Of a DNA stretch of 64,000 nucleotides, positions 48,931 to 64,000 are shown piece by piece. Numbering within the stretch: the stretch's first letter is position 1; each line of letters opens with the position of its first letter. The notes below the pieces were generated by a model. That model had not been told where the DNA came from. It saw only the letters and a list, made by a program, of their open reading frames with translations, and ran no database searches. Source of the stretch: Oceaniovalibus sp. ACAM 378 (GTDB lineage Bacteria; Pseudomonadota; Alphaproteobacteria; Rhodobacterales; Rhodobacteraceae); contig NZ_VSJK01000004.1 in assembly GCF_008085915.1 (NCBI RefSeq), forward strand, positions 248,001-312,000, read 5' to 3'. Position numbers and translations under genes: made by a program.

Positions 48931-49644
48931 ATGCCTGGAGCATCGACCGAAGCGGAAGAACATACAGCCGCGCCGAGGCAGACCCGCACGGGACGCCCGG
49001 CCCCGATAAGACTGGTCATTCTCAGCGCCGTTCGCCTTGTGCACGAGGGTGTCGCAGGCAGTTTCGACCCTGTGACCGGCGTGAGGGTGGTTGAACACAC
49101 CGAGATTTCTTCCGAGGCCTTCCCGCGCATCGGCCAGTTGCGGCCCGACGCGGTGCTTGTGGATGTGACGACCCGAAAGGGGCTTCAGGTGCCCCGGCGG
49201 ATTCAGCAGTTCTGCCCTCAGGCGGCCTTGATCGCCTTTGCGGTGGCCGAGGTCGAAGAGGAGGTGATCGCTTGCGCCAATGCGGGTTTCTGCGGCTATG
49301 TCTCGCGGCAATGCGGGGCGAGCGACCTGCTGCAGGCGCTGTATGACTCGCTCGACGGCCGCCTGTGCTGCCCGCCTCACATTTCCTCCGCGCTGTTCCG
49401 GCGGTTGGCTCATCACAGCGAGCCACCGGCCCCGCATTCCTCTCTCGACTGTGCGGTCCTGACCCCGCGCGAAACGGAGATCATTACGCTTGCCGACACC
49501 GGGCAAACCAACAAGGAAATCGCCCGCGAGCTGCGGATCAGCGACTCGACGGTGAAGAACCACATGCACAACATATTGCAAAAGCTGATGGTGTCGCGCC
49601 GCGGCGAGGCCCTGTCCCGCCTGCGCTCGCGCCCCATCGTCTAG
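48931..49644 (+). CDS. LuxR-type response regulator with degenerate receiver
   Basis: 237 aa. Residues 26-145 have a receiver-like fold. The expected acidic pair after the first strand is replaced (RLVILSAVRL), and the switch lysine position reads GYVSRQ; Asp78 (AVLVDV) could still fill the phospho-site. Residues 176-235 are a complete GerE/LuxR helix-turn-helix (LTPRETEII, NKEIARELRISDSTVKNHMHNI). Start ATG at 48931 with GCGGAGATG upstream. It lies directly before, and reads towards, the eCIS operon, so it is the likely regulator, probably not phosphorylation-controlled. Confidence 0.88.
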   Translation: MPGASTEAEEHTAAPRQTRTGRPAPIRLVILSAVRLVHEGVAGSFDPVTGVRVVEHTEISSEAFPRIGQLRPDAVLVDVTTRKGLQVPRRIQQFCPQAALIAFAVAEVEEEVIACANAGFCGYVSRQCGASDLLQALYDSLDGRLCCPPHISSALFRRLAHHSEPPAPHSSLDCAVLTPRETEIITLADTGQTNKEIARELRISDSTVKNHMHNILQKLMVSRRGEALSRLRSRPIV

Positions 49645-49855
49645 GCCGAGCCCCCGGCCCTGCCCATCAAGACCCGCCCTAAAGGTCCAGACCGCACGAC
49701 CCCCGGCAAATGCGCCGGGACGGTGGTTCTGATCGAGGTTTTGCCAACTGATGGCGCTGGCTGAACGGACGGTACCACGGAACTTTTGCATTTCCTTTCC
49801 GCTAGATAGGAAACTTCTCCCTACCGCAGGCCGGGAAGATCGCACCGGCTTTGCA

Positions 49856-49873
49856 CGCCAGTGGCCACTGGCG
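49856..49873. promoter_or_regulatory. 18-bp perfect palindrome, candidate operator for the eCIS operon
   Basis: CGCCAGTGG followed directly by CCACTGGCG, about 190 bases before the first eCIS-linked ORF. LuxR-type dimers bind palindromes of this size. No other copy was noticed in the window. Confidence 0.5.
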
Positions 49874-49912
49874 GTGCCTCACCAGCCGTTCATCCGCATC
49901 CCCACACGACGG

Positions 49913-49953
49913 CCCATGGAAGGGCCTATGCACTGGCCCATTCGGACCATGGG
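49913..49953 (+). promoter_or_regulatory. Bipartite hairpin in the eCIS leader
   Basis: Outer arms CCCATGG and CCATGGG, inner arms GGGCC and GGCCC with an 8-base loop, separated by an internal bulge. Together 12 base pairs. It could be an mRNA leader structure or a second protein site. Confidence 0.45.
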
Positions 49954-50063
49954 AAAAGGGCGCAAGGGTCTGGACCGCCCGGTGGACCATCGGGTCCATT
50001 GCTCTGGGGCAGGCCTCGCTTTTACGCTGCATGAAAGCGGATTCCCTAACCAGGACTGTGCAA

Positions 50064-50417
50064 GTGACGACGACAATCTTCCTCGCCAACATGCCACGAA
50101 TGCTGGAGGACATCGTCCAGACGGTCCTGAAGCGCTCGCCTGGCTTTCGCGTCGCCCGGCAGGGCGGCACCACGGGCGACCTGCTTGGTGCGGCCGCCGC
50201 TTCCGGCGCAAGCGCGATCATGCTTGCAGTTCCGGATCCCCGCGCACCTTTCACGAATGATCCCCGTCTTGCACTGCTCGACAATCTTGTGGTGCTCGCC
50301 CTAAGCGAGAGCGGCGCAGAGGCGTGGCTGTACAGGCTTTCCTGCGACGGGCAACCGCTGCCAGAGACCTCTTCCGACGCGCTGCTTGACGCACTTTCAA
50401 CGGCAAGGCGGGTGTGA
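50064..50417 (+). CDS. Stand-alone receiver-like protein of the eCIS operon
   Basis: 117 aa from GTG at 50064 (AGGA eight bases upstream); an ATG at 50031 would add 11 residues. It opens TTIFLANMPRMLEDIVQTVL and continues in an alternating strand/helix pattern like a CheY receiver, but the phospho-acceptor position (AIMLAVPDPRA) lacks the aspartate at the strand end, and there is no output domain. It ends one base before the DUF4255 gene. No known function; a pseudo-receiver partner of the upstream regulator is an inference. Confidence 0.65.
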   Translation: MTTTIFLANMPRMLEDIVQTVLKRSPGFRVARQGGTTGDLLGAAAASGASAIMLAVPDPRAPFTNDPRLALLDNLVVLALSESGAEAWLYRLSCDGQPLPETSSDALLDALSTARRV

Positions 50418-50418
50418 C

Positions 50419-51003
50419 ATGGACGGCACCATCATAGCAGATGCCAGCGAAACCCTCCGCGCCCTCGTCGAGGACGGGGTGCGCATCGCCTTCCCCGCCG
50501 CCACTGCAACGCTGGAACCGCCGAACCTCGCGCAGCCGCAGGCCAACGAGATCGCGGTCTCGGTCTGGCTGCACATGGTCGAGCGCCATCCCGACCTGCT
50601 CAACGTGCCGCCGCGACGCGTCGCGGTGGATCGGGTCGAGCGCCGCCCCCTGCCGCTGCGCCTGCATTACCTCATGACGCCGCTAGGCGCGGACACGCTG
50701 ACCCGCCAGCGGGTATTGGGCATGGCGATGCAGACCATGCATGACAACGCTTTCGTCGAGCCCGGCGACCTTGAACAACCGCTGATCAACGCACGCATCC
50801 GCAGCCTGTCGATCCACCTCAATTCCCAATCGCTGGAGGATTTGACACGGGTCTGGCACGCGCTCACCCGACCCTACGAACTCTCCGCCTGCTATCTCGT
50901 GGACGTGTTGCCCTTGCCCTCCATGCGTGAGGATCGCGCCGGGCCACCGGTGGTGGAGAAGCGCCTGGAATACGCCGCGGTGCCCTCGGGAGGTCGGTCA
51001 TGA
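50419..51003 (+). CDS. DUF4255 (Pvc16/Afp16 N-terminal-like) cap protein
   Basis: 194 aa. The pattern ETLRALVEDGVRIAFPAATATLEPPN, ANEIAVSVWLHMVE, then LPLRLHYLMTPLG and DLTRVWHALTRPYELSACYLVDV matches DUF4255 proteins, the tube/sheath terminator of Afp/PVC particles. It stops sheath and tube growth at the far end. In Afp-type loci this gene is usually last; here it is near the start. It overlaps the next gene by four bases. Confidence 0.85.
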   Translation: MDGTIIADASETLRALVEDGVRIAFPAATATLEPPNLAQPQANEIAVSVWLHMVERHPDLLNVPPRRVAVDRVERRPLPLRLHYLMTPLGADTLTRQRVLGMAMQTMHDNAFVEPGDLEQPLINARIRSLSIHLNSQSLEDLTRVWHALTRPYELSACYLVDVLPLPSMREDRAGPPVVEKRLEYAAVPSGGRS

Positions 51004-52049
51004 GCCTTGCCCCCCGCACCCTCGATCGGGAAATCCTGCAGGTGGGTCTGGCAACCTTCCGGGTGTTCGGAACCGACGGACTGCCGCTGGCTCGTCTGAC
51101 CCTCGATCTCGACGGACCGCCCGGTGTGACCGCACGCCATCTCGGCTCCGGCCTCGTCGGCCTCTCGGGTGATCCCGACACCGCGTTCCCACCGGCCCCG
51201 GCGCCGCTGGACGCCACGCTCACTGTCGGGGAGGTCGGTTACCGCTCCGAGACGCTTGCCATCTCGGTTGCCCAGAACGCCATCCTGCCGGAAAACCTGC
51301 CCGACATAGTTCTCAGGCGTCAGCCCGGCGTCCTGCAGGGCCGGGTTGTCCGAGAGGCCGATGGCACGCCAATCACCGGCGCGACGATCTCGGTCGTGCC
51401 GGTACCGCCTGTCGCCGGGGAGCACCTGATCGAACTGGCCACGCCCTTGCCCTGGGATGTTCCCCCCGGAACCCAGATCGATGGATTTGGCCTTGCAGCT
51501 GTGGCTGGACCTGTCCCTGTCAAGACACTCGGGGCCACCGCAAATGCCGGGGACAGGGCGCTCCTGCTCGATGACCGCCAGAGCCTTGCTGCGGGGCAGT
51601 ACCTGCGCCTTGGCGCGGGCCGCAGCCGGTCTCTGGCCGAGATCGCAGCCGTCTCTCCGGTGCCGGCGGATCTCACGCAACCCGGGCTGGTCTTTCTGGT
51701 CGGCCCGCTTCCCGCCAGCGCGCCTCAGGGCGCACCGGCCGCGCCGATGACCCTGGGCGGCCTCGTACAGGGCGGGCAGAGCATCGGCACTGCGCGGAGC
51801 GGCGAGGCTCTCCTTCTCACGGATCAGCCGGTGCAGGGCATGCTGCTGCGCATCGGCCCAGCTGCAGACGATCGGGTGATGGCCCCTCTCGACCCGACAG
51901 ACGCAGACGGGCGCTATACGATACCGGGCCTCGCCCGATTTCCCTTTCTTGAAGTCACGGCCAGCGCCGCCGGCTTCACCGATCAAACCCGTACCCTGAC
52001 TCAGACCTCAAGTTTGCGCATGCAGCTCGATTTCCGGCTCGCACCGTAA
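51000..52049 (+). CDS. Carboxypeptidase-regulatory-like domain protein of the eCIS operon
   Basis: 349 aa. The two halves of one beta-sandwich domain are visible: LQGRVVREADGTPITGATISV (about 112-132) and DADGRYTIPGL with VTASAAGF (about 301-326). Between them lies an insert of about 165 residues that contains a beta module like ones in both sheath proteins. No signal peptide. Start overlaps the DUF4255 stop. It may be a surface or collar component; eCIS loci often carry such a protein, but the role is unproven. Confidence 0.75.
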   Translation: MSLAPRTLDREILQVGLATFRVFGTDGLPLARLTLDLDGPPGVTARHLGSGLVGLSGDPDTAFPPAPAPLDATLTVGEVGYRSETLAISVAQNAILPENLPDIVLRRQPGVLQGRVVREADGTPITGATISVVPVPPVAGEHLIELATPLPWDVPPGTQIDGFGLAAVAGPVPVKTLGATANAGDRALLLDDRQSLAAGQYLRLGAGRSRSLAEIAAVSPVPADLTQPGLVFLVGPLPASAPQGAPAAPMTLGGLVQGGQSIGTARSGEALLLTDQPVQGMLLRIGPAADDRVMAPLDPTDADGRYTIPGLARFPFLEVTASAAGFTDQTRTLTQTSSLRMQLDFRLAP

Positions 52050-52073
52050 CCCCAGCCAACGAGGACACGCGAC

Positions 52074-54170
52074 ATGGCAGAATATCTCGCCCCCGGCGTC
52101 TTTGTAGAAGAAGTGGACCTGAAACCACCCGCGATCGAAGGCGTAAGCCTCAGTGCCGCGGGCTTTGTCGGCGCAACCCGGCGCGGGCCAACCGATGGCG
52201 GGCCAGTGCTGGTCACCGGCTATCCGGAGTTCCTGCGCACTTTCGGTGGGCCATTCGATCCGACCTCGCCGGTGAACCCGGTGGGCGATCTGCCTTTCGC
52301 CGTCGAAGGGTTCTTCGCCAATGGCGGGCGGCGGCTCTACGTCCGGCGCGTGGCCCCGGCGGGCACGACTCCGGCCGCGTTCTCGATGAGCGGCGGCATC
52401 CTGACACGGCTGCGCCCCGGCGAGGCTGCGGTGGTCGGCCAGACGACCTTCCGCCCGCAATCCCTGCGCGGGCTGCGCGACGGGTTGAACGTCACCTTCC
52501 AGACCAACGTGAGCGGGGTCGCCTATAGCTCCAGCGCGCTGACCATCGCCGCCAACGGGATTGACCGCGATACCGGCACGGTGACCCTTACCGCGGCCAT
52601 CGACATCGCCCCCGCTGGCCCCAACACACCGGCGTCGTTCGCCCCGGGCGCCACAGGAGTCGTCACCAACGCCAACGACATCGACGCGGCCGGGCTCATC
52701 GACACGGGCGCGCGCCAAGTGATCGGTGACCTGTTTGCCGCCAATGGCGGGGCCTGGGGCGACGGCCTTGTCGTCACCGCGCAACATGGCGACGGCGCGC
52801 AGTCCACGCTCGCAGGCTTTATCTTCGGCGCGGTCGACGACAACCGGATCCAGGTCGTCTCGACGGCCGGCTTCTATCCCGGCGCATGGGTGGAGATCGA
52901 CCGCGGCCCCAACGCCGGTAAACGGTACCGCCAGCTTGATCACGTCGAAGGCACGGTGCTGGTTCTGCTCGGCGGGGCCCTCGTGGCCGGAGACGTCGCC
53001 CCGGCCCCGGCCGGGTCCATCACCCGATTCACTGTCTGCGAGTTCACGCTGACCGCCCGCTTCGAAACCCAGAGCGAAACCTTCACCGGCCTTACTCTGG
53101 CCAATGTGCCGGGGCACTTCATCACCGAAGTCCTGCAACGCTCCAGCCTGATCCGCATGGAAGAGGCCGCCTTGCCGCTCAACGCACCACTCTTCGGCAC
53201 CAACACCAACCCCCTGCTCTTCCCGGCGGGCGACGATGGTGCGCGGATCACGCTGGCTGTGTCCGGCGTCGATGCTGTCCCCTCGGCCAACGACATCGTC
53301 GGCACCGACAACGGTCCCGGACAGCGCACCGGCCTCTTTTCGTTCGAGGACGAGCCGAGCCTCGGCATGATTGCCGCTCCGGGCTGGGGAGACCTCGTGG
53401 TCAAGCAGGCGATGATCGACCAGTGCGAGCGGTTGAAGTACCGCATTGTCCTGCTCGACCCGCGGCTGGTGGGCGGCGTCGCCCCCAACATCCAGCAGAT
53501 CCGCGACCAGCGAAACGAGGTCGACAGCCGCTATGCCTCTGTCTTCTACCCCCGCATCATGGTGCCGACGGCGCTGGGTGGCACCGGGCGGGCCATCGCG
53601 CCCTCGGGGCACGTGGCCGGGCTGATCGCGCGGGTGGATTCCGTGCGCGGGGTCAACAAGTCACCCGCCAACGAGATCGTTCGCGGGATTCTGGGTCTGG
53701 AGAGCACCGTCAACCAGCGCGAGCACGAGGTGCTGAACCCCGAGGCGATCAACGTGATCCGCGACTTCCGCGGCGACCGGCGCGGCATCCGCCTCTATGG
53801 TGCGCGCATGGCCACCAGCCTGCAGGACTGGCGTTACACCTCGGTGCGCAGGCTGTTCATCTTTATTGAGAAATCCATCGAGATCGGCACCGCCTGGGCC
53901 GTCTGGGAGCCGAACAATCCCACCACCTGGCAGCGGCTCATCGACAGTGTCAACGCCTTCCTGACGCGGCTCTGGCTTGATGGCGCGCTGTTGGGGCTGA
54001 AGAAGTCCGACGCCTTCTTCATCGACTGTGGGCTCAACACCATGACGCAGGACGACGTCGACAACGGGCGGCTGATCATGACCGTCGGTGTCGCCGCGTC
54101 GAAACCCGCCGAATTCGTCATCATCCGGATCAGCCAGATGGCTTCCGGCGCATTCATCGATGAAAGCTGA
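52074..54170 (+). CDS. Contractile tail sheath protein 1
   Basis: 698 aa. Sheath opening LAPGVFVEEVDLKPPAIEGVSLSAAGFVGAT, then FFANGGRRLYVRRV, and the conserved C-terminal domain (about 480-698) with the YGARM and AVWEPNN stretches and a KPAEFVIIRISQM end. Residues about 110-460 are a large insert that would face outward on the particle. It contracts to drive the tube. AACCCCAGCCAACGAGGA precedes the ATG. Longer than most Afp sheath proteins. Confidence 0.95.
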   Translation: MAEYLAPGVFVEEVDLKPPAIEGVSLSAAGFVGATRRGPTDGGPVLVTGYPEFLRTFGGPFDPTSPVNPVGDLPFAVEGFFANGGRRLYVRRVAPAGTTPAAFSMSGGILTRLRPGEAAVVGQTTFRPQSLRGLRDGLNVTFQTNVSGVAYSSSALTIAANGIDRDTGTVTLTAAIDIAPAGPNTPASFAPGATGVVTNANDIDAAGLIDTGARQVIGDLFAANGGAWGDGLVVTAQHGDGAQSTLAGFIFGAVDDNRIQVVSTAGFYPGAWVEIDRGPNAGKRYRQLDHVEGTVLVLLGGALVAGDVAPAPAGSITRFTVCEFTLTARFETQSETFTGLTLANVPGHFITEVLQRSSLIRMEEAALPLNAPLFGTNTNPLLFPAGDDGARITLAVSGVDAVPSANDIVGTDNGPGQRTGLFSFEDEPSLGMIAAPGWGDLVVKQAMIDQCERLKYRIVLLDPRLVGGVAPNIQQIRDQRNEVDSRYASVFYPRIMVPTALGGTGRAIAPSGHVAGLIARVDSVRGVNKSPANEIVRGILGLESTVNQREHEVLNPEAINVIRDFRGDRRGIRLYGARMATSLQDWRYTSVRRLFIFIEKSIEIGTAWAVWEPNNPTTWQRLIDSVNAFLTRLWLDGALLGLKKSDAFFIDCGLNTMTQDDVDNGRLIMTVGVAASKPAEFVIIRISQMASGAFIDES

Positions 54171-54182
54171 GGAGGTTTCCAA

Positions 54183-54626
54183 ATGGCAAACGGCAACCGG
54201 ATCGACCCCTATCTGGGCTATATGTTCAGCGTCAGTATCGGCGCGATCACCAACATCGGCTTTCGCGAGTGCATGGGGCTCTCGCTTGAAGTGGCACCGG
54301 TGGAGTACCGCGAAGGCAACTCGCGCAATCTGAACGTCAGAAAACTCTACGGGCTGCGCACCTTCCAGAACCTCCAGTTCAAGCGCGGCATCATCGAGGA
54401 CCGGCAGCTCTACCTCTGGTACCTTGAGGCGCTGAACGGCAACGCCCCCCGGCGGGACGGTTCGATCACGCTCCTCGGCCAGGATGGAGAGCCCACAGGC
54501 TGGCACTGGTTGTTCTTCGAGGCCTTTCCGACCAAGTGGGAGGGTCCAAGCTTCAACGCCACCGCCAACGAGGTCGCGATCGAAGCGTTGGACATCGCGG
54601 TGGAGCGGATCGAGGCGCAGGTCTGA
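54183..54626 (+). CDS. Inner tube protein 1 (gp19/Afp1-like)
   Basis: 147 aa of the phage tail tube/Hcp-like fold: DPYLGYMFSVSIGAITNIGFRECMGLSLEV at the start and FEAFPTKWEGPSFNATANEVAIEALDIAVE at the end, the typical Afp1/Pvc1 pattern. Strong GAGGAGG upstream. It stacks as hexameric rings inside the sheath. The stop is directly followed by the second sheath gene. Confidence 0.93.
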   Translation: MANGNRIDPYLGYMFSVSIGAITNIGFRECMGLSLEVAPVEYREGNSRNLNVRKLYGLRTFQNLQFKRGIIEDRQLYLWYLEALNGNAPRRDGSITLLGQDGEPTGWHWLFFEAFPTKWEGPSFNATANEVAIEALDIAVERIEAQV

Positions 54627-56954
54627 ATGCGCACTCCGGGGCTTCATATCCTGCCACCAGCGCCTCCGGCGCGGATCGACGCGAGCCGTATCGATGTACC
54701 CGCCTTCATCGGCGTGGCCGAGCGGGGCACCATCGGGCAGAGCGTGGCGCTCTCGGGCTGGCCGGCCTACCGCGAGGTTTTCGGCGGCTACCTTCCCAAT
54801 GCGCATCTCGCCTATGCCGTCTTCGCCTTTTTCGAGAACGGCGGCGCGCGCTGTCATGTGACCCGCGTCGCAGCCCCGGCGGCCGAGACGCAATCGGACC
54901 CGCTCCAGCCGCTCTCGGGCGACGGGATCACCGCAGCGGTGGTCGCCTCGGCCGGATTCGTTGCGGGCGCGGCGATACATGCATCCCAACAGATCGAGAC
55001 CGCGTCCGTCGGCCCGCAGCCCGCCGACCGGGCCTCCTCCATCGTGGCGTCGACCGCCGGGCTCCAGGCCGGAACGATGGTCCGGGTCCGCCAGGGGGAC
55101 CTGACCCAGCTCTGGCGGGTGCTGTCCCGCGTCGACGACGCCGCCAGCGCGATCACCTTCCGGGAGCCGCTGACGCTCGACTACGACCTCACCCAGCAGA
55201 TCCATTTCACCGTGACCCATACCGCAACCCGGCTCATGGCCACCGCGGGCGGCAATGTGCTGACCTTCACCCGCCCCCTGCCGGGCAACATCGTGCGCAA
55301 CCGGCAGATCGACTATCGCAGTGGCCGCGGCACGGCGGGGGGAGAGTTGCCCTCCGAGCGTGGCGTGCCGCTGCTGCGAATACAGGCAAGTTCACCGGGG
55401 GCTTGGGGAAACGCGCTGGTGGTCCGGCTCGCGCGCGGCTCGGCGGCCGAGACCGAGACCCGCACCCGCCCAGCGCCTCTGCCACCCGACGCGCCGAACC
55501 TGCTCTCGCTCGCGCGGATTCAGGGCCTGCCCGTCGGCGCGACACTGACGCTCCAACAGGAGGGTGCCGCCCCGGTGCGCCGCCGGGTGGCCGGGGTGCT
55601 CGGCCCGGAGCGGCAGATCCGGCTGGATGCAGACTTGCCCGTCAGCTTTTCCATGGCTCAGGCGGCCTCAGGCGTCCGGCCGGTTCGGCTGCGGCGCGAG
55701 ACCTTCACCCTCTCCGTAGTGGAGCGGGACCGGCTGGTGGAGCTGCATTCGGATCTCGATCTGCCCGAAGCAGGCGTCTTGCCGCTTATCGCGGGCAGCC
55801 GGATTATCGCCGAGCGTCTGGCCATCGCCAGCGAGCCCTATCCCCTGCCCCATCCCGAGCAACTCGCGACATCCGGCGCGCTGCGACTTGATGGCGGGCT
55901 CGACGGAATCGCCGCGCTCTTGCCCGAAGACTTTCTCGCCGGGCTCGCTCCCTATGACGACGAGGACGAGCCTGCGGCGATCGCCATGCCGGACATCCAG
56001 CCACCTGTCATAGCCGCCTCCGAGACCCTGCCGTCTCCCCCGGTGGTCCCGGACCCTTGCGCCCTGGACCCATCGGCCGCGGTTCCGATCCCCGACAGAC
56101 TCTCGACCATCGTCGAAGCCGCACCGGTCATTTCGGCCGGGGCCCACGCCGCGCTGGCCCGCGCACTGGTCGCACATTGCGAAGGCCGGGGTGATCGCAT
56201 CGCCGTGCTTGACGCCCCGCGCGATCTCGACGCCGCAGATCCCTTTGACCCGGAGAGCGCGATCGACTGGGCCTTGGGACAGGCCAGCTCCTATGCCGCG
56301 CTTTACTGGCCTTGGGTCTTGGCCGTGGACCCGCTGGACAGGCTCGGCGGGCTTCGCACCATCCCGCCCTCTGGGCACGTCCTTGGCGCATGGGCCCGGT
56401 CCGATGTCGCCCACGGGACACAGAAGGCCCCGGCGAACCAGCCGCTGCTGTTTGTCGAGGCGCTGAGCCGCGAGACAGACACCGCACGGCTGGGCCTGCT
56501 CAATGCGGGGGGCGTCAACTCGATCCGGCCTTTCACGGGCGCAGGCGTCCGGATCTACGGCGCGCGCACACTCTCGCCACAGCCAGACCTTGCGCTGCTC
56601 AACGTGCGGCGCATCCTGATCCAGCTTCGCCGCAGTCTGCGCCAGTCCTTGCAATGGGTCGTGTTCGAACCCGACAACGCTGCGCTGCGCCGCCGGTTGC
56701 AGACCGCCGTCGAAGGATTTCTCGAACGCTGGTGGCGGGCTGGGCGGTTTGCAGGTGCCACGGCAGATCAGGCCTTCCTCGTCCACATCGCCCTGCCCGA
56801 GGCGCTTGGGCCCGGCACCCTGCTTGTCGAAATCGCCGTCGCCCCCGTGCGACCGGCGGAATTTGTCGTGCTTACCGTCACCCGGATCGACGAGGCCATC
56901 TCGATCGGCGAACCGGCGGTGTCGGCGGGCGTGGCGCAGGGAGGTGCGGCATGA
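54627..56954 (+). CDS. Contractile tail sheath protein 2
   Basis: 775 aa, the larger of the two sheath proteins. The N-terminal arm has PAFIGVAERGTIG, FFENGGARCHVTRVA follows, and the C-terminal domain (about 590-765) has RIYGARTLS, WVVFEPDN and PAEFVVLTVTRID. The middle (about 90-580) contains inserts, including an acidic Pro-rich stretch near 440-500. Start ATG at 54627 is the base after the tube stop. Two or three sheath genes are usual in Afp/PVC clusters; one may form the baseplate-proximal ring. Confidence 0.92.
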   Translation: MRTPGLHILPPAPPARIDASRIDVPAFIGVAERGTIGQSVALSGWPAYREVFGGYLPNAHLAYAVFAFFENGGARCHVTRVAAPAAETQSDPLQPLSGDGITAAVVASAGFVAGAAIHASQQIETASVGPQPADRASSIVASTAGLQAGTMVRVRQGDLTQLWRVLSRVDDAASAITFREPLTLDYDLTQQIHFTVTHTATRLMATAGGNVLTFTRPLPGNIVRNRQIDYRSGRGTAGGELPSERGVPLLRIQASSPGAWGNALVVRLARGSAAETETRTRPAPLPPDAPNLLSLARIQGLPVGATLTLQQEGAAPVRRRVAGVLGPERQIRLDADLPVSFSMAQAASGVRPVRLRRETFTLSVVERDRLVELHSDLDLPEAGVLPLIAGSRIIAERLAIASEPYPLPHPEQLATSGALRLDGGLDGIAALLPEDFLAGLAPYDDEDEPAAIAMPDIQPPVIAASETLPSPPVVPDPCALDPSAAVPIPDRLSTIVEAAPVISAGAHAALARALVAHCEGRGDRIAVLDAPRDLDAADPFDPESAIDWALGQASSYAALYWPWVLAVDPLDRLGGLRTIPPSGHVLGAWARSDVAHGTQKAPANQPLLFVEALSRETDTARLGLLNAGGVNSIRPFTGAGVRIYGARTLSPQPDLALLNVRRILIQLRRSLRQSLQWVVFEPDNAALRRRLQTAVEGFLERWWRAGRFAGATADQAFLVHIALPEALGPGTLLVEIAVAPVRPAEFVVLTVTRIDEAISIGEPAVSAGVAQGGAA

Positions 56955-57463
56955 CCGGCGACCGAAACGATCCTGCCCTCGCCTACAACTTCGAGGTCGA
57001 ACTGGTGGACGCCCAGAGCGTCGGCGCGTTCCTCTCTCTCACCACCGGCGTGCCCTCCAAGGCGGGGTTCAGCGAGGTATCGGGACTCGAGGTCTCGATC
57101 GAACCCGAGAAGTACAAGGAAGGCGGCAACAACGGCACCGAGCTTGTGTTCCCCGGTGCGGCAAGCTGGTCGACGCTGAAACTGCGCCGCGGCGTGGTGA
57201 AAAGTTCCGACCTCTGGGACTGGCACATCGGCTTTATCGAGGGTCGCGGCGTGCGGCGCGACGGTGTCGTCACCCTGCTCGACCAGAACCGTGACGCCGT
57301 GCGCTCCTGGCGTTTTCTCAATGGCCTGCCGGTGAAGTGGCTGGGACCGAATTTCAACGCGATGGAGGCGGCGGTCGCGATTGAGGAGATCGAGATCGCG
57401 CATGAGGGCATCACCGGCACCGGCAGCCCCAACCTTGTCAGCGCCATCGGCGCCTTGTTCTGA
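56951..57463 (+). CDS. Inner tube protein 2 (Afp5-like)
   Basis: 170 aa tube-fold protein: NDPALAYNFEVELVDAQSVGAF, SEVSGLEVSIEPEKYKEGGNNG and the C-terminal LPVKWLGPNFNAMEAAVAIEEIEIAHEG. This resembles Afp5/Pvc5, the tube-initiating ring. ATG at 56951 overlaps the sheath 2 stop. The loop after strand two (about 35-45) is longer than in tube protein 1. Confidence 0.92.
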   Translation: MTGDRNDPALAYNFEVELVDAQSVGAFLSLTTGVPSKAGFSEVSGLEVSIEPEKYKEGGNNGTELVFPGAASWSTLKLRRGVVKSSDLWDWHIGFIEGRGVRRDGVVTLLDQNRDAVRSWRFLNGLPVKWLGPNFNAMEAAVAIEEIEIAHEGITGTGSPNLVSAIGALF

Positions 57464-57474
57464 AGGAGACCGCA

Positions 57475-57669
57475 ATGGACGACGTGCATGTCGAAACCCT
57501 GAACGTGGACATCACCGCCACCGATGGCGGCAGCCTGACCCCGGCGCAGGAGGCCCGCGTGCTGACGCTCGTCCGCCAGATTCTCGCTGACGACACCCGC
57601 AAGCGCCAACTCCAGAACGCCAACCGCAACCTCGGCCAGCCCGCCGACCGCACATTCGAGGGAGGCTGA
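57475..57669 (+). CDS. Small Afp6-like (DUF5908) protein
   Basis: 64 aa, acidic at the start and helical in the middle (TPAQEARVLTLVRQILADDTRKRQ). AAGGAGA directly upstream. Size and position between tube 2 and the LysM protein fit Afp6/Pvc6, a small protein of the baseplate region. Sequence alone gives little more. Confidence 0.75.
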   Translation: MDDVHVETLNVDITATDGGSLTPAQEARVLTLVRQILADDTRKRQLQNANRNLGQPADRTFEGG

Positions 57670-57672
57670 GCC

Positions 57673-58371
57673 ATGGTCCAGGCGCTTGCAAAGGCAGAAA
57701 TCCACAGGCTGAACCCCGACGGCACGCCTGCGGGCAAGTCGCTTACAGTGCAGTTCAATCCCAACGAATACACGCTGGTCAAGGGTGCCAAGATCGCCCA
57801 GATCCCGATTTTCGGCATCGACAGCCCGATCCTTCAATTCGTCGCCGGCACCTCGGAGACGATGAGTTTCGAGCTCTTCTTCGACTCCACCGAGGACGGC
57901 ACCGGGACCGAGGCCAAGCCGGTCACCAAACGCACGGATGAATTCTATGATCTGATCAAGATCGACGGCGAGACCCACGCGCCGCCGGTGGTGCTGTTTG
58001 CCTGGGGGGCTGATACCTTCCCCGGCCACCGCCGCCCCGACAGCCAAAGCCGCCACGGGTTCAAGGCGCTTGTGGAGCAGGTGCGCCAGCGCTTCACCTA
58101 TTTCTCCAGCCTTGGCGTGCCGCTCCGGGCAACGCTGAGCCTGACGCTGAGGGAGTACAAGACCCTTGACCAGCAGATCGCCGAACTGAACCTGCGCTCA
58201 CCCGACCACACCAAGGCCCATGTGGTGCAGACCGGCGAGACCATCACCCGCATTGCGCAGAAGACGGCGGGCGATCCGCGCTCCTGGCGGCGGATCGCCG
58301 AGGCCAACGCAATCGACGACCCATTCTCCCTCGCACCTGGCACGCAGCTTGCCGTGCCTCCGGAGGTATGA
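57673..58371 (+). CDS. LysM baseplate protein (Afp7/gp53-like)
   Basis: 232 aa. The first 165 residues match the tail-associated family that begins KAEIHRLNPDG and VQFNPNEYTL. A LysM domain covers about 183-230 (HVVQTGETITRIAQK, SWRRIAEANAID, LAPGTQLAVP). In Afp/PVC this protein caps the tube at the baseplate. GGAGGC upstream; ends three bases before the hub gene. Confidence 0.92.
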   Translation: MVQALAKAEIHRLNPDGTPAGKSLTVQFNPNEYTLVKGAKIAQIPIFGIDSPILQFVAGTSETMSFELFFDSTEDGTGTEAKPVTKRTDEFYDLIKIDGETHAPPVVLFAWGADTFPGHRRPDSQSRHGFKALVEQVRQRFTYFSSLGVPLRATLSLTLREYKTLDQQIAELNLRSPDHTKAHVVQTGETITRIAQKTAGDPRSWRRIAEANAIDDPFSLAPGTQLAVPPEV

Positions 58372-58374
58372 CCC

Positions 58375-59583
58375 ATGGCACCCCCGGCAAGCCCCACCCT
58401 GATCGAACTGGCGAAAACCAACGCCTCCTACTACGTGCCCACCTTCGAGCTGCGGGTGAAGGGCGCGCCGCTGCCGCGCAACGTGGTGCGGGACGTGGCC
58501 GAAGTCGTCTACGAGGACAACGTGGACAAGGTGGACGGCTTTCACCTTTCGCTTGCCAACTGGGACGCCACCGAGCGGCGGCCGAAATATGTCGGCCTGT
58601 CAAAGGACCGCCAGAACACCAAGGATGCAAAGCTGTTCTCACCCGGCAACGAGGTACAGCTTTTCATGGGCTATCAGGGCGATCTGACGCTGTTGATGAC
58701 CGGCTATATCACCATGCTGGATGTGGAATACCGCGAAGACGGGGCGACCGCCCTCACCGTGCACGGACTCAACGTGATCGACCGGCTGCGCCAGCGGCAA
58801 TTCACCTGGACCTGGCCCGATGACGGGGCAAAGACGATCCGCGACAGTGACGTCGCGCTCGCCCTCGCCCGCCCGGCGGACGACAAGAAGGGCCGCCCCG
58901 GACTTGGAATGCGGGTGCGCATCGACAAGGGCGCGCGGGATCGCGAGCCTCCCGTGGACCACATCATGATGAACAACGAAGTGCCCATCGTCTTCCTGCT
59001 CGAGCGGGCCCGGCGGCGCGGCTATGAGGTGACCATCGACGAAGAGATCCAGCCCAGCGGGAAGTCGGAGCAGATCCTGTATTTCGGCCCGACGATCTCG
59101 CTCAAGGACGTGAGTTACGTTCTGGAATGGGGCAAGTCGCTCACCAGCTTCAAACCGGTCTTTTCCTCGGCCAAGCAGCTCTACGCCGTCACCGTCACCG
59201 GCTGGGACCGGCGCAAGAAGGCGAAGATCTCCGAGCGGGTCACGCTGGATTCGATGGACCCGGTCGATCTGCCGAACAAGGACCTGATCGAGCCCGCGCG
59301 AGTGGCAAACCGCGAGGACGTGATCACCGACCATCCGGTGAAATCCAAGGAAGAAGCCAAGCGCCATGCCACCGACATCCTGCGCGAGCAGCAGCACCAG
59401 ATGATCACCGCCGCCGGCGAGACGGTGGGGCTGGTGGATCTGCGCGCCGGCCGCGTGGTCGCCATTCGCGGCACCGGCGTCCCCTTCGACGGCAAGTACT
59501 TTGTGACGGGCACAAGGCACACGATCGGCATCAACGGCTACCGCACCCGGTTCCAGGCACGCCGCATCAACCCGGAAACATGA
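58375..59583 (+). CDS. Baseplate hub protein (gpD/gp27-like part of Afp8)
   Basis: 402 aa of the phage late control D/VgrG N-terminal family: PTFELRVKGAPLPRNVVRDV at the start, DGATALTVHGLNVIDRLRQRQ near 125, and a C-terminal barrel with AGRVVAIRGTGVPFDGKYFVTGTRHTIG. In Afp8/Pvc8 this part is fused to the OB-fold spike; here the spike follows as its own gene after ten bases. It forms the trimeric adaptor between the sixfold tube and threefold spike. Confidence 0.9.
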   Translation: MAPPASPTLIELAKTNASYYVPTFELRVKGAPLPRNVVRDVAEVVYEDNVDKVDGFHLSLANWDATERRPKYVGLSKDRQNTKDAKLFSPGNEVQLFMGYQGDLTLLMTGYITMLDVEYREDGATALTVHGLNVIDRLRQRQFTWTWPDDGAKTIRDSDVALALARPADDKKGRPGLGMRVRIDKGARDREPPVDHIMMNNEVPIVFLLERARRRGYEVTIDEEIQPSGKSEQILYFGPTISLKDVSYVLEWGKSLTSFKPVFSSAKQLYAVTVTGWDRRKKAKISERVTLDSMDPVDLPNKDLIEPARVANREDVITDHPVKSKEEAKRHATDILREQQHQMITAAGETVGLVDLRAGRVVAIRGTGVPFDGKYFVTGTRHTIGINGYRTRFQARRINPET

Positions 59584-59593
59584 GAGGACCGCC

Positions 59594-60130
59594 ATGAAAC
59601 GCTCTGACGCACAACGCCCCCGAATGTCCGGACAGACGATTGCCACGGTGGTGTCGCTTGATGATCCGGATGGCGAGGGCAAGGTCCTGCTGGAATTGCA
59701 GACGCAGGAGGGCCGCAGCGTGCTCGCCTGGGCGCCGGTTGTCACACCCATGGCCGGAAACGGCCGCGGCTTGTGGGCAATGCCGGAAGAAGGCGACGAG
59801 GTCCTCTGCGGCTTTCTCTACGGCGACCCCGAGCATCCTTACATGTTGGGTGCGCTCTACAACGGGAAGGACAAGCCGCCCTCGACCTCCTACCGCGAGC
59901 GGCGCTGGTCGTCGCTGGTGCATCCCGGTTTCCGGATGCTCGACAAGGAGGGGGAGAAGGGCGACTTCGGCGCCGTCGTGATCGAGGATCATTACGGCAA
60001 CCGGATCACCCTTTCCAACGGCAAGATCACCGTCAGTTCGGTCTGCCTCGTGGAGTTCAAGGCCGAGATGTTCTCTTTCTCGGGGTCCGGCTGGCGCCGT
60101 GTCATGACCCCCAACAACAACCCGCTCTGA
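59594..60130 (+). CDS. Spike protein with gp5/VgrG-type OB-fold
   Basis: 178 aa. The OB-fold covers about 14-95 (IATVVSLDDPDGEGKVLLELQ, AWAPVVTPMAGNGRGLWAMPEEGDEVLCGFLYGDPEHPYMLGALYNGKDKPP), the gp5 N-terminal pattern. A short beta-repeat-like part follows (FGAVVIEDHYGNRITLSNGKITVSS). There is no long needle and no PAAR tip within it. It sits on the hub at the piercing end. Confidence 0.92.
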   Translation: MKRSDAQRPRMSGQTIATVVSLDDPDGEGKVLLELQTQEGRSVLAWAPVVTPMAGNGRGLWAMPEEGDEVLCGFLYGDPEHPYMLGALYNGKDKPPSTSYRERRWSSLVHPGFRMLDKEGEKGDFGAVVIEDHYGNRITLSNGKITVSSVCLVEFKAEMFSFSGSGWRRVMTPNNNPL

Positions 60131-60140
60131 GGTACGATCC

Positions 60141-60896
60141 ATGGCAACCAAGGAGATCCCCATCGAGGCCGACCTTCAGGAACTCCTGAAGATCCCGAGC
60201 TGCGATCTCCTGCGGCTGAACCGGCCAAAGCCGCTTTCGGTACAGATGCCGGGCGGTCCCAAGGTGCAGGCGTTCGCGGATATCTCGAAGGGGATTCCGA
60301 CCGATTGCTCCTTCGCGCTGTCGATCTCGCTTCAGATCGCCCCGTTCCTGATGTCGACGCATTGTCTGGTCCAGATTCTGGCCATGCTCGAGGCCGTCAA
60401 GAGCGTTGTCGAGGATCTCCCCATCCCGTCCTTCGAAACTCTGGAAAAGTTCTTCAAGGCGGCGGACGGGATCGCCGATTGCGTACTGGCCTTTACGCCG
60501 CTGGGCCTTTTCGATTTCATCCGTGACCTTCTGCTTCTCATCATCAAGTTCCTCAAATGTTTCATCGGCGCGATGAAATCGATGATCGAAACACTCGGCG
60601 GGCTGACGATAAAGATCGGCGAGGCCGAGGCGCTTGGCAATGACGAGTTGAAACAACTGTACGAATGCGCCCGCGAGAACGCGGCGAATTCCAACCAGAC
60701 CCTGCAGGACGGGCTGGGACCGGTCGTGAACCTTATCGATCTAGTGAAACCCCTTCTGGAAATTGCCGGAATCCCTGTCGAGGTGGAGTTGCCAGCAGCC
60801 GCCGACCCGGAAGACCTGGAGGCGATGACCGAGGCAATCCAAAAGATCGAGGACATCGTCGTGCTGCTTGAACAGGTGGTGGAGACAATCCCATGA
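60141..60896 (+). CDS. Unknown helical protein in the eCIS baseplate block
   Basis: 251 aa, mostly helical. A hydrophobic stretch at about 114-145 (CVLAFTPLGLFDFIRDLLLLII then KFLKCFIGAM) is long enough to enter a membrane, and at least six cysteines are spread through it. The end is acidic and heptad-like (EDLEAMTEAIQKIEDIVVLLEQVVE). No signal peptide and no family recognised. It lies between spike and gp25, overlapping the gp25 start, so it is made with the baseplate. A chaperone, tip-associated membrane-active protein or cargo adaptor are all possible. Confidence 0.7.
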   Translation: MATKEIPIEADLQELLKIPSCDLLRLNRPKPLSVQMPGGPKVQAFADISKGIPTDCSFALSISLQIAPFLMSTHCLVQILAMLEAVKSVVEDLPIPSFETLEKFFKAADGIADCVLAFTPLGLFDFIRDLLLLIIKFLKCFIGAMKSMIETLGGLTIKIGEAEALGNDELKQLYECARENAANSNQTLQDGLGPVVNLIDLVKPLLEIAGIPVEVELPAAADPEDLEAMTEAIQKIEDIVVLLEQVVETIP

Positions 60897-61306
60897 GACA
60901 ATCCCCCGACATCCGTCCTTTTCTGGGCCGCGGCACCGCGGTTCCGTTCCGCCCCAACACCCGCGGCGGCTTGGACCTCGTGAGTGGTCCCGCGCTGGTG
61001 GAGCAGTCGATCTGGATCATCCTCACGACGCCGCGCGGCTCGGTCGAGATGGAACCACGCTTTGGCTGCGGCATCCACGGGCTGGTGTTCTCTGACAACA
61101 CAGCCGCCGCCCGCGCCATCATCGCCCAGCAGGTGGCCGAGGCGCTGACCGAATGGGAGGCCCGGATCGACCTCATCGACCTCCGCGTGTCCGAAGGGAC
61201 CGAACCCACCGAGATCCGGATCGAGATCGACTATCGGCTGCGCTCCAACAACGCCTTTTTCAACCTGGTTTACCCCTTCTATGTGCGCGAAGGACGCGAT
61301 CTGTGA
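60893..61306 (+). CDS. Baseplate wedge protein (gp25/GPW, Afp9-like)
   Basis: 137 aa with the gp25 core: the EPR motif Glu54-Pro55-Arg56 in VEMEPRFGCGIHGLVF, and the C-terminal DYRLRSNNAFFNLVYPFYV. ATG at 60893 overlaps the upstream stop. The family forms the baseplate wedge that starts sheath assembly. Confidence 0.93.
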   Translation: MRQSPDIRPFLGRGTAVPFRPNTRGGLDLVSGPALVEQSIWIILTTPRGSVEMEPRFGCGIHGLVFSDNTAAARAIIAQQVAEALTEWEARIDLIDLRVSEGTEPTEIRIEIDYRLRSNNAFFNLVYPFYVREGRDL

Positions 61307-63312
61307 TGGTCCTCAAAGCCCCCGACCTCGACGACCGCCGCTATGACGACCTGCTGGAGGAGGTCCGCACCCTGATGCCGCGCTATGCGCCGGAGCAGAC
61401 CGACCTCACCGACAGCCAGCCCGCGATCCTCATCGCCAAACTCTTTTGCTGGATGACGGACCTGACGCTCTACCGGGTCAATCGCATCCCCGAGCGGGCC
61501 TACGTCAAATTCCTCGAACTGATCGACGTGACGCCGAAGCCCGCGAGCCCTGCCCGCACCGAGCTGAGCTTCACGCCCGCCCGGCAGGATGTTCCGGATA
61601 TCGTGGTGCCCGCAGGCACTCAGGTCGCCGCTGCGGCAGACGAAGACGGGCCGATCCTGTTCGAGACGCTGGAGCCTCTGAGCGTGGTGGCAACGCCGCT
61701 TGTCGAGGTGCAGGTCTATGACGGTTTCGGCTATCGGATCGCCACCACCCGCGCCCGGGCCGAGGGCCAGACCATCGACCCTTTCGGCCCGCTCGCCCGC
61801 GACGGTTCTGCGCTTTTGCTGGGTTTCCAGCCCACCGCCGATTTCACCGCTCAGGACATCTCGTTGCTGATCCGCCTGCCCCGGAACGAGCGCCCGCCCA
61901 CGCCGCTGAGCTGTAACGTGGCGATCGATCCGCTTCCGGCGGACCTTGTCTGGGAAGTGCGCAACGCGACCGGATGGGAGCCGATTTCCACCATCCGCGA
62001 CAACAGCCGCGCGTTTACTCAGGACGGCTATGTCCGCATCGCCGGCCCCGGCACAGTGGCACGTCAGGCCATCGTCGGAGAGGTGCAGACACCGCTCTAC
62101 TGGCTGCGCTGCCGCCTCCAGCGCGGGGCCTACGAACGCCCGCCACGCCTCGACTCGGTGCTGATCAACACTGTGCCCGCGCATCAGGCCTCCACCGCGA
62201 CCGAAGAATTCCTTGGCCGCAGCGATGGCCGACCCGACCAGAGCTTCACACTGGCCAACCTCCCCGTGGTGCCGCGCGACAGACCGATGAAGCTGCTTAC
62301 GCCGGACGGCGTGGCGATTTCAGTCCCCAGTCTTCGGCTGGAGGTGGATGAGGGTCAGGGATTTGTACCATGGCAGGAGGTGCCCGACTTCCTTGCCAGC
62401 GGCCCCGACGATCGCCATTTCACGCTGAACCATGGCACCGGCCTCGTGACCCTCGGGGACAACCGGCGCGGACGCATTCCCATAGCGGTGGGCGGCGGAG
62501 AAATCGTCGCGCAGGAGTATTTCTGGGGCGGCGGTCGGCGCGGCAACCTTGCCGCCGGAACCGTGACCCAGATCCAGAGCTTCGTTGCCGGGATCGAGGA
62601 GGTCACGAACCCGTTCGCCGCCGAGGGCGGTGCCGAAGAGGAGCCGGTGGAGGACGTGAAGCGCCGTGCCGCCGCCGAGATCGCCAGCAATGGCCGCGCC
62701 GTAACCGCCGCCGATTTCGAGACCCGGGCGCTCTCTACCCCCGGCGCCCGCATCCGCCGCGCCCATGCCGTGGCACGCTTTCATCCGCAGTTCCCGGGGG
62801 CCGAGGTGCCCGGCGTGGTGACAGTCATCGTCGTGCCCGATGGCGACGGCCCCGCGCCGATGCCAAGTGCCTCGACCCTGACGCTTGTCTGCAAGCATCT
62901 GGATACCGTACGCCTCATGACCTCCGAGGTTCACGTTGCCCCGCCGCGCTACCGCGAGGTCCGTGTGGCGGTGACGGTAGAGGCCCGGCCGGACGCCGAT
63001 GCCGCCGAGGTCCGGCGGCTGGTGGAACAGCGGCTCGACAGTTTCTTCCACCCGCTCGAGGGCGGCCTGAACCCGGCCACGGGCGATCCCGGCGCAGGCG
63101 GCCTGCCGTTCGGCGCGACGATATTCGTCTCGGACCTGTTTCAGCTCATCCTCGCCACCGATGGCGTGGCCCGACTCGCCGATGGCCAGATGGAGGTCCG
63201 CGTCGATGGCGAGGCCAGCCAGTTCTGCCGGGATATCCCGCTCTGCCCAAACGAGTTGACCTGCGCGAAGGGCCATGACGTCACTGTCCGGTTCCGGGGG
63301 AACGGGTCATGA
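61306..63312 (+). CDS. Baseplate J family protein (Afp11-like)
   Basis: 668 aa. N-terminal part with DLTDSQPAILIAKLFCWMTDLTLYRVNRIPERAYVKFLELIDV, typical of eCIS J proteins, a middle part with NPFAAEGGAEEEPVEDVKRRAAAEI near 490, then AVTAADFETRALSTPGARIRRAHAVA of the J domain. The start ATG at 61306 shares its first base with the gp25 stop (TGATG). It forms the wedge arms of the baseplate. Confidence 0.92.
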   Translation: MVLKAPDLDDRRYDDLLEEVRTLMPRYAPEQTDLTDSQPAILIAKLFCWMTDLTLYRVNRIPERAYVKFLELIDVTPKPASPARTELSFTPARQDVPDIVVPAGTQVAAAADEDGPILFETLEPLSVVATPLVEVQVYDGFGYRIATTRARAEGQTIDPFGPLARDGSALLLGFQPTADFTAQDISLLIRLPRNERPPTPLSCNVAIDPLPADLVWEVRNATGWEPISTIRDNSRAFTQDGYVRIAGPGTVARQAIVGEVQTPLYWLRCRLQRGAYERPPRLDSVLINTVPAHQASTATEEFLGRSDGRPDQSFTLANLPVVPRDRPMKLLTPDGVAISVPSLRLEVDEGQGFVPWQEVPDFLASGPDDRHFTLNHGTGLVTLGDNRRGRIPIAVGGGEIVAQEYFWGGGRRGNLAAGTVTQIQSFVAGIEEVTNPFAAEGGAEEEPVEDVKRRAAAEIASNGRAVTAADFETRALSTPGARIRRAHAVARFHPQFPGAEVPGVVTVIVVPDGDGPAPMPSASTLTLVCKHLDTVRLMTSEVHVAPPRYREVRVAVTVEARPDADAAEVRRLVEQRLDSFFHPLEGGLNPATGDPGAGGLPFGATIFVSDLFQLILATDGVARLADGQMEVRVDGEASQFCRDIPLCPNELTCAKGHDVTVRFRGNGS

Positions 63313-64000
63313 CCGCGGGGCTGGATATCGTCCGCCGTCTGGTGCTGGATGCCCGGCTGGGCTGGCCCGCAGCGGCCAGCTTCGAGATCGCCGTGGGCGA
63401 TGAGATCCGCCTCGCCGATCACCCCGTCGCCCCCGACCCCATTGCCGACCCCTCTAACCGGCTCGGCGGGCTCTCCGGGCCGATTTGGGCCGCCGTCTTT
63501 CGCGCCGGCGCTCTGGTGATCCTCGACAAGGAAGGCGCGAGGCTCCTCGCCTTCGATCCCTGCGACGAGGCATTCCATCCTTTCGCGTGTTTCCATGGCC
63601 CCGGCTCTAGCATCGGTGCGTTGCGCGGCGCGCGTGGCCTTGCGGTGGATGCCGCCGGTCGGCTCGTGATCGCGGACACCGGCAACAGACGGGTGCAGGT
63701 CTACGATCCGCGTCTCTCTCGGATCACGCAGGTGATCGGACCGTTCCGCGCCGAGGCCGGGGCACTTGTGCCGGTGTCGCCCGCCCCTGAGCTGGACCCT
63801 GACGGTCTGCCCACCGGTGCCCTGACCTATCCGACCGGCACTTGGGAGCCGACGGCGGCCCTGCCCCGGACGGGCGCGATGCTCTGGGTGGCCGACCGGG
63901 CCGGGCAGGCAATTCACCGGATCGACCCGATGGGCCGCCCCGCAGGTCAGCTTGACGCCGACGATCCGGCGGGGCGGCCGCTTGGCGCACCGGTGGCCCT
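63309..64000 (+). CDS. NHL-repeat protein of the eCIS operon, 3'-incomplete
   Basis: About 230 codons seen from ATG at 63309, which overlaps the J stop (ATGA). NHL/beta-propeller signatures are visible: RGLAVDAAGRLVIADTGNRRVQVYD (about 103-127) and AMLWVADRAGQAIHRIDPMGR (about 195-215). The frame is open to the window edge. Such propeller proteins follow J in some tail and eCIS loci and may be a fibre or baseplate-peripheral part; the role here is inferred from place only. Confidence 0.8.
   Translation, partial: MTAGLDIVRRLVLDARLGWPAAASFEIAVGDEIRLADHPVAPDPIADPSNRLGGLSGPIWAAVFRAGALVILDKEGARLLAFDPCDEAFHPFACFHGPGSSIGALRGARGLAVDAAGRLVIADTGNRRVQVYDPRLSRITQVIGPFRAEAGALVPVSPAPELDPDGLPTGALTYPTGTWEPTAALPRTGAMLWVADRAGQAIHRIDPMGRPAGQLDADDPAGRPLGAPVA

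Follow-up and report, generated by a model that had tools for sequence, protein, structure and literature searches.

The contractile injection system (CIS) described here most resembles a branch known from Streptomyces clavuligerus pF1D25B and from Halogeometricum borinquense, and its main cargo resembles the polymorphic toxins of Photorhabdus virulence cassettes (PVC). The H. borinquense CIS is bound to the cytoplasmic membrane, acts in the mode of a type VI secretion system (T6SS) and comes with toxin-immunity pairs (PMC11566945). PVC-delivered toxins can contain a single annexin domain, which is always followed by an enzymatic domain, and annexin was proposed to be an accessory in the breaching of membranes (Zhang 2012, PMC3482391). 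The locus lies in a window of 64,000 nucleotides from Oceaniovalibus sp. ACAM 378 (C66:248001-312000, contig NZ_VSJK01000004.1, of an assembly of 5.36 Mb and 116 contigs) and continues beyond it, in flanking stretches labelled L009 and L010. We read it as a CIS of the extracellular (eCIS) lineage, the main cargo of which is a giant polymorphic-toxin-like protein accompanied by an immunity-like next gene, and which serves as an antibacterial weapon; this reading is given a probability of roughly 65%.

The likeness to the S. clavuligerus and H. borinquense branch lies in the gene order (pF1D25B) and in the sheath (PDB 9ezm, E = 1.2e-91). What sets ACAM 378 apart from that branch is an additional 251-aa gene that separates spike from gp25, a row of three Cis13-like fibres, and an annexin-stem cargo with an immunity-like gene. 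With the PVC-type polymorphic toxins the cargo has in common an annexin region followed by a C-terminal enzymatic toxin domain; whereas a table in Zhang 2012 lists annexin together with the PVC-metallopeptidase, the ACAM 378 cargo has no match to DUF4157, and in place of a single annexin domain it contains at least three recognisable repeats. A further difference from those toxins is the exchange of tips between related loci, with the next gene partly co-varying. A related tip is also found in a hemagglutinin of Rhizobium leguminosarum BT01 that we read from its annotation as CdiA-like, and a related gene follows it, but there the tip ends a hemagglutinin-repeat protein and not a CIS cargo. 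Annexins combined with toxin domains have been described in some bacteria by Kodavali 2014 (PMC3894181), the main text of which does not contain the terms alpha-proteobacteria, Rhodobacter, phage or secretion. In the survey of Geller 2021 (PMC8213781), GerE regulators stood beside 25.8% of eCIS loci and immunity genes accompanied some; why antibacterial eCIS toxins mostly lack immunity genes was called a mystery.

A giant cargo with a conserved annexin stem

The cargo gene was compared among five annexin-stem loci, in each of which (5/5) it lies directly 3' of the gene for the CIS AAA+ ATPase. The protein has 2349 aa in ACAM 378, 2315 aa in Roseomonas marmotae p1318-4 (42% over 1960 columns), and 2355, 2380 and 2346 aa in three further genomes, G346, G631 and G1196, respectively. 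The sample is small, and four of the five loci came from searches with sheath, annexin, stem or tip, so that it is not an unbiased draw; the stretches compared for G631 and G1196 end inside sheath 1. Among the five cargos the pattern of a conserved stem and a variable, toxin-like C-terminal part holds throughout.

The Pfam annexin model matched all five cargos at E <= 0.1, in ACAM 378 at residues 905-954 with E = 3.1e-13 and in Roseomonas with E = 5.5e-14. In the genome searches, where the cut-off is 25 bits, G346 reached 23.3 bits (26.7 with neighbours) and G631 24.2, its single-domain score thus standing under the Pfam cut-off. A profile made from the five annexin regions found annexin VI with E = 5.9e-34, in five stretches. 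As judged from the sequence, the ACAM 378 cargo has three clear annexin repeats, at about residues 826-896, 897-980 and 1230-1305, and possibly a degenerate repeat between them. In 5/5 cargos the last repeat has kept a GxGTD loop, the Thr of which is followed 40 positions on (39 between) by an Asp. The annexin region would bind membrane phospholipid, probably with Ca2+. It is followed by a hydrophobic segment, present in 5/5 at about residues 1390-1445 of the ACAM 378 numbering; in three of the other cargos it extends as far as about 1480.

The two ends of the stem were also inspected. A Q-x(3)-G-N motif is found near the N-terminus of 5/5 stems, and a slightly looser form of it appears in 0.6-3% of shuffled N-termini. 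The idea that this motif is common to DUF4157 cargos found no support (0/6 DUF4157 proteins) and was dropped. Effectors of eCIS at large carry an N-terminal signal that has no set sequence (PMC11297309). Residues 1783-1944, which close the stem, recur in a Streptomyces DUF4157 protein encoded beside CIS genes (E = 7e-15). An HExxH motif is absent from 4/5 cargos, G1196 having a single isolated one.

Exchange of the C-terminal tip

The tip of the ACAM 378 cargo is shared with G1196 (35% over 150 columns, E = 5e-14) and with the C-terminus of the CdiA-like protein of R. leguminosarum BT01 (37.6% identity, E = 6e-25). When the three were aligned, a Glu, an Asp in a short conserved strand and a D-x-K were kept in 3/3; because this is the pattern of PD-(D/E)xK nucleases, the tip looks like a nuclease of that kind. 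Roseomonas, G346 and G631 share another tip, HINT-like and GIY-YIG-like, for which profile support is moderate to weak: PT-HINT was found in 2/5 cargos at a threshold of 0.1. In a scan that took in the individual tips except that of G631, the Roseomonas tip reached E = 6.7e-7 and the G346 tip E = 0.031, and GIY-YIG was matched in the G346 tip only (E = 0.015).

The three genomes G346, G631 and G1196 allow the history of the tip to be separated from that of the operon. For each of the operon proteins compared (12/12), the G346 sequence agrees better with that of G1196 than with that of G631 (50-82% vs 37-72%); this set leaves out sheath 1, tube 1, spike, gp25, Cis16, the carboxypeptidase-like protein and the short open reading frames (ORFs). 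The stem behaves in the same way, G346 having 67% identity with G1196 and 53% with G631. The tip reverses this relation, with 19% and 44%, so that G346 and G1196, the closest pair, have unrelated tips. The next gene follows the tip in its first half (27% and 42%, with no BLAST match between G346 and G1196) but not in its second (54% and 49%); the boundaries of the tip and of the gene halves were drawn by eye. In windows of 100 residues, identity changes sharply near residue 1900, from 80% to 22%. These comparisons indicate that tips are exchanged on a fixed stem, sometimes along with part of the next gene, and, as read from the BT01 match, that the exchange reaches across delivery systems to CDI-like (contact-dependent inhibition) ones.

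The exchange also bears on the possibility that the 2349-aa protein is the tape measure of the particle and not a toxin. Its great and nearly constant length in five loci (2315-2380 aa), its hydrophobic segment, its position adjoining the ATPase and the fact that no other protein matched a tape-measure family would all suit such a role. A C-terminus that is swapped for unrelated nuclease-like or HINT-linked modules would be needless in a tape measure, and we consider this explanation very unlikely.

A candidate immunity gene

The gene following the cargo gene encodes, in ACAM 378, a protein of 239 aa. It resembles the product of the gene right after the BT01 tip (pairwise E = 1e-5, a score reached by 0/300 shuffles), and a profile of six rhizobial homologues found it with E = 1.2e-12, the next best value being 0.77 among 1690 sequences, 400 of them shuffles. 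This rhizobial relative turned up only through inspection of the gene behind the tip match. A homologue in R. beringeri stands two genes after a HINT-domain polymorphic toxin and near an Imm63 gene. We therefore predict the 239-aa protein to be a candidate immunity protein, and a probable toxin-immunity pair in turn indicates bacterial targets.

The second half of the next gene in G346, G631 and G1196 (L027, L015, L035) is kept whatever the tip, and in G346 and G631 it is HEAT-like at scores under the Pfam cut-offs. It may be an adaptor for loading that has been joined to the immunity part. A link to a Rhodococcus HEAT protein found beside a DUF4157 cargo was considered and rejected, as no significant similarity was seen.

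A different target would follow if the annexin region bound the phosphatidylserine-type membranes found in protists or animals, and if eukaryotic cells were killed by the nuclease. Afp and PVC act on invertebrates, which speaks for such an anti-eukaryotic eCIS. So does the counting of annexin among the domains predicted to act against eukaryotes (Geller 2021, PMC8213781). Arguing the other way, the tip is like the C-terminus of a CdiA-like toxin of bacteria, and the following gene is like the neighbour of that toxin gene; in addition, across G346, G631 and G1196 a change of tip comes with a change in the next-gene first half. An anti-eukaryotic role thus appears unlikely.

Several observations weigh against an antibacterial annexin-stem toxin with its own immunity gene. 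On the side of the stem, the second annexin repeat of G346, G631 and G1196 has insertions and is without the loop Asp, and the loop pattern performed weakly in a shuffle test, its count being reached by 92/2000 shuffles of the ACAM 378 and 88/2000 of the Roseomonas sequence. DUF4157 (PVC-metallopeptidase) was undetected by Pfam in 5/5 cargos, and the ACAM 378 tip has neither a Pfam nor an NCBIfam match. On the side of the immunity candidate, ACAM 378 and G1196 share a tip, yet their next genes show no BLAST similarity, so that tip and next gene are unmatched in some comparisons; indeed BLAST relates the 239-aa protein to none of the four other next genes, and it lacks the second half common to them. 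The first half of the G1196 next gene scored E = 0.91 against the rhizobial profile (pairwise 0.010), and a tblastn search of 72,556 plasmid records with the 239-aa protein gave no match at 0.01. Finally, the rhizobial family occurs in 40 plasmid records (25 Moraxella, 14 Rhizobium, 1 Burkholderia) and that tip in 2, the family often standing without the tip, and no annotated toxin lies beside it in the three other annotated rhizobial plasmids examined. Polymorphic toxin systems often include orphan immunity genes, and a family found without an adjacent toxin is therefore not decisive as to an immunity function.

The operon

The front half of the CIS operon occupies 50419-64000 of the window, and its end is at C66:332171, which is 84171 in the extended coordinate (C66 position minus 248000). 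Twenty-four ORFs, the regulator included, were assigned to the locus and scanned with Pfam, the family scan reaching extended position 88822. They are as follows:

48931-49644, plus strand: LuxR/GerE-type response regulator (PF00196, E = 4.2e-17)
50091-50417, plus strand: 108-aa ORF with a homologue in Roseomonas (E = 2.8e-15), the sole ORF assigned in 49645-50418
50419-51003, plus strand: Cis16, terminator/cap (Pvc16_N, DUF4255; PF14065, E = 1.1e-29)
51000-52049, plus strand: carboxypeptidase-regulatory-like protein (PF13620, E = 5.1e-10)
52074-54170, plus strand: sheath 1, 698 aa (PF17482/PF04984, C-terminal domain E = 4.6e-12; best PDB match 9ezm)
54183-54626, plus strand: tube 1, gp19-type (PF06841, E = 1.5e-35)
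54627-56954, plus strand: sheath 2, 775 aa (PF04984, E = 7.3e-12; PF17482, E = 3.2e-10)
56951-57463, plus strand: tube 2, gp19-type (PF06841, E = 1.1e-33)
57475-57669, plus strand: small protein read from the sequence, Cis6 by position only, without a family match
57673-58371, plus strand: Cis7, CIS_tube and LysM (PF19266, E = 6.6e-30; PF01476, E = 1.7e-7)
58375-59583, plus strand: VgrG-like hub, the gpD/gp27-like half of Cis8 (NF033848, E = 9.4e-23, under the model cut-off; also phrog_52 tail protein, E = 1.3e-18)
59594-60130, plus strand: spike, the gpV-like half of Cis8 as a separate gene (PF04717, E = 2.1e-22)
60141-60896, plus strand: 251-aa protein with homologues in the four other annexin loci
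60893-61306, plus strand: Cis9, gp25 (PF04965, E = 5.4e-21)
61306-63312, plus strand: Cis11, baseplate J (TIGR02243, E = 2.4e-94)
63309 to extended 65534, plus strand: Cis12, NHL repeats and Tail_P2_I (TIGR02242, E = 9e-22; NF053768, E = 2.9e-40, under the model cut-off)
extended 65544-68087: collagen-repeat Cis13-like fibre (NF053767, E = 4.5e-21, under the model cut-off)
extended 68057-70066: protein with Cis13 N-terminus (NF053767, E = 1.6e-9, under the model cut-off)
extended 70063-72096: protein with Cis13 N-terminus (NF053767, E = 6.7e-7, under the model cut-off)
extended 72115-72351: 78-aa ORF
extended 72357-74276: 639-aa protein, tape-measure candidate by position only
extended 74273-76390: AAA+ ATPase with WHD domain (E = 1e-20)
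extended 76387-83436: 2349-aa cargo, polymorphic-toxin-like
extended 83452-84171: 239-aa protein, immunity-like

The hallmarks of an eCIS, namely sheath, tube, spike, gp25, J, LysM adaptor, terminator and AAA+ ATPase, thus stand together in one operon. A preliminary description of the window had placed sheath, tube, LysM, hub, spike, gp25, J and DUF4255 genes in one operon of eCIS type; each is borne out by a profile match (that of the hub below cut-off), as are the two sheath-tube pairs with large sheaths, and the eCIS assignment is strengthened by the ATPase and toxin-like genes downstream. Of the genes it expected past 64000, the AAA+ ATPase, fibre-like proteins and a toxin-like protein were present, while a tape measure could be assigned by position only: the gene of the 639-aa protein lies in the usual tape-measure place, and its product has no significant family. 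The inclusion of 48931-49644 within the structural locus did not hold, since this ORF is the LuxR/GerE response regulator. It is probable that this regulator governs the operon; homologues lie directly 5' of cis16 in Roseomonas (45%) and G346 (31%). Pvc16_N was found as a single copy in the ACAM 378 genome, and the carboxypeptidase-regulatory-like gene after cis16 has an equal position in Roseomonas and S. clavuligerus.

The slot between spike and gp25 is usually occupied by PAAR, and no PAAR protein was recognised in the operon. The 251-aa protein found there in 5/5 annexin loci carries a hydrophobic stretch. Pfam, NCBIfam and PHROGs gave no significant family for it, and a search of PDB with its family did not identify it either (best E = 0.24); it may be an unusual tip or plug. 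The three successive Cis13-like proteins (L009:2544-9096) have an N-terminal part of about 85 aa in common and differing bodies, which would suit a particle with fibres of more than one kind.

The homologous tail genes could also be those left by a prophage or tailocin. Against such a remnant stand the AAA+ ATPase with WHD, Pvc16_N, the two sheath-tube pairs and the NHL-containing Cis12, as well as the synteny of the operon with those of four further genomes or plasmids. Pfam found no capsid, portal or terminase family in the 24 locus ORFs and the next three genes; these three, the first scanned after the locus, form a glycine-betaine-type ABC transporter, where the preliminary description had named phage head genes as the sign of a prophage. 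A remnant of this kind is extremely improbable.

Mode of delivery

By sequence, the best PDB matches of sheath 1 are 9ezm and then 8bky (E = 3.8e-74). Structure 9EZM was deposited with the paper on the H. borinquense CIS, which names 8BKY as Cis2 of S. coelicolor (PMC11566945). As the closest solved sheath is from a membrane-bound CIS, sequence alone cannot establish that the particles are extracellular.

One scenario, compatible with the toxin reading of the cargo, is accordingly that the ACAM 378 system is a membrane-bound, contact-dependent CIS of T6SS mode and not a released particle, as the kinship of its sheath with that of a membrane-bound system accompanied by toxin-immunity pairs (PMC11566945) would suggest. 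It is disfavoured by a host that is, from its kinship, probably Gram-negative, and by the operon proteins, in which no anchor family was recognised (no search for an archaeal anchor was made). The only IcmF_C (TssM-type) match of the genome, moreover, sits on another contig (C27:6123-6443). We regard this scenario as possible and rather improbable. The TssJLM membrane complex, named in the preliminary description as the mark of a T6SS, was likewise not recognised among the locus proteins; the genome-wide search covered IcmF_C and not TssJ or TssL. Given the match on C27, ACAM 378 may also carry a true T6SS. Neither a CdiA-type repeat stick nor a CdiB transporter domain was found in the locus proteins.

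Gene order, kinship and rarity

The order of the ACAM 378 genes differs from the classic order of the antifeeding prophage (Afp), as had been pointed out in the preliminary description. It is not unusual for the branch, since S. clavuligerus and Roseomonas share it and Cereibacter has a similar one, and its oddity was therefore rejected as a sign of novelty. In S. clavuligerus pF1D25B the genes run DUF4255, carboxypeptidase-like, sheath, tube, sheath, tube, small, LysM, gpD-like, Rhs-annotated spike-like and gp25, and ACAM 378 has the same order up to gp25 plus one extra gene. The operon of Roseomonas marmotae p1318-4 is syntenic with it throughout; Cereibacter pORIO4 resembles it too, except that a PAAR-like gene is present and that the last protein is shorter and unrelated. 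BLAST matches (1e-3) were found for 18/22 of the ACAM 378 proteins in G346 and for 16/22 each in G631 and G1196. The misses common to all three are two short ORFs, the 639-aa protein and the 239-aa protein; the additional ones in G631 and G1196 are Cis16 and the carboxypeptidase-like protein, from stretches that stop inside sheath 1. GC content is 62-70% in the CIS locus and 60-64% in the preceding 10 kb, and no repC-type match lies on C66 (three lie on other contigs of the genome). At the DNA level the genome matches plasmids of Rhodobacteraceae type, in keeping with a place in the Rhodobacter group.

Pvc16_N was present in 39/390 genomes drawn from the order and in 0/3 of the other same-genus genomes shown in that sample. 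Annexin matched 2/390 genomes of the order (ACAM 378 and G346, both within the 39), and the stem profile 2/385 genomes of the class (ACAM 378 and G631). In the phylum, 3/398 genomes had annexin matches, one of them above the cut-off: ACAM 378, G631, and G972, whose match we take as false (under cut-off, in a sensor-kinase-looking ORF, with no stem similarity). The ACAM 378 tip matched 3/248 genomes of the family, being ACAM 378 itself, G1196 (in the stem protein) and G1177; the last was set aside as a match of 58 residues in a 130-aa frame, at a locus without stem similarity. The whole cargo, searched against the 72,556 plasmid records, gave four matches, to Roseomonas (stem), Rhizobium (tip), Streptomyces (stem end) and Acinetobacter (a short piece of the tip). 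The Acinetobacter ursingii match (L020:4001-4141) is unannotated and lies right after a site-specific integrase gene. A scan of viral_contigs with the stem gave 28 pattern matches and no relatives (0).

Discussion

The operon, the common stem with its annexin repeats, the exchange of tips and the likeness of both tip and next gene to a pair from rhizobia are seen in the sequences, and they suggest how an antibacterial CIS of this kind might work; loading, Ca2+ binding, membrane insertion, nuclease activity, the immunity function and the bacterial target are predicted steps. The AAA+ ATPase would aid particle assembly and loading, with the N-terminus of the cargo acting as the loading signal. 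The three Cis13-like fibres would bind the target and contraction of the sheath would deliver the cargo, the multi-repeat annexin region of which would attach to membrane phospholipid, probably with Ca2+. The hydrophobic segment could then insert, and the C-terminal nuclease would enter the cytoplasm and cut nucleic acid; in the relatives, the HINT domain would free the tip. The product of the next gene would shield the producer and its kin.

A more far-reaching proposal, which we put forward tentatively and think on balance rather doubtful, is that the annexin stem is a general Ca2+-triggered translocation device that is laid by the particle on the inner membrane of the target, has a path opened by its hydrophobic segment and passes any fused folded nuclease into the cytoplasm, in an antibacterial CIS that is subject to CDI-like, immunity-driven diversification. 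The diversification is suggested because the particle proteins are constant while the tip and the immunity part are exchanged, also with CDI-like systems.

In the open-access literature searched, as far as its texts were available, we found no report of a CIS in this group whose cargo has an annexin stem of several repeats but lacks DUF4157, of a natural exchange of tips with a partly co-varying next gene on a constant operon, or of a tip and its neighbour that are both common to a CdiA-like protein. The loci let the stem, the tip and the immunity candidate be told apart by natural exchange, and separate tests become possible of an antibacterial role, of the loading signal and of what an annexin does in bacteria. 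They also cast doubt on the view that a locus of this type is aimed at eukaryotes when it contains annexin. If the proposed reading is true, annexin, a fold best known from animal membrane biology, would serve an antibacterial CIS.

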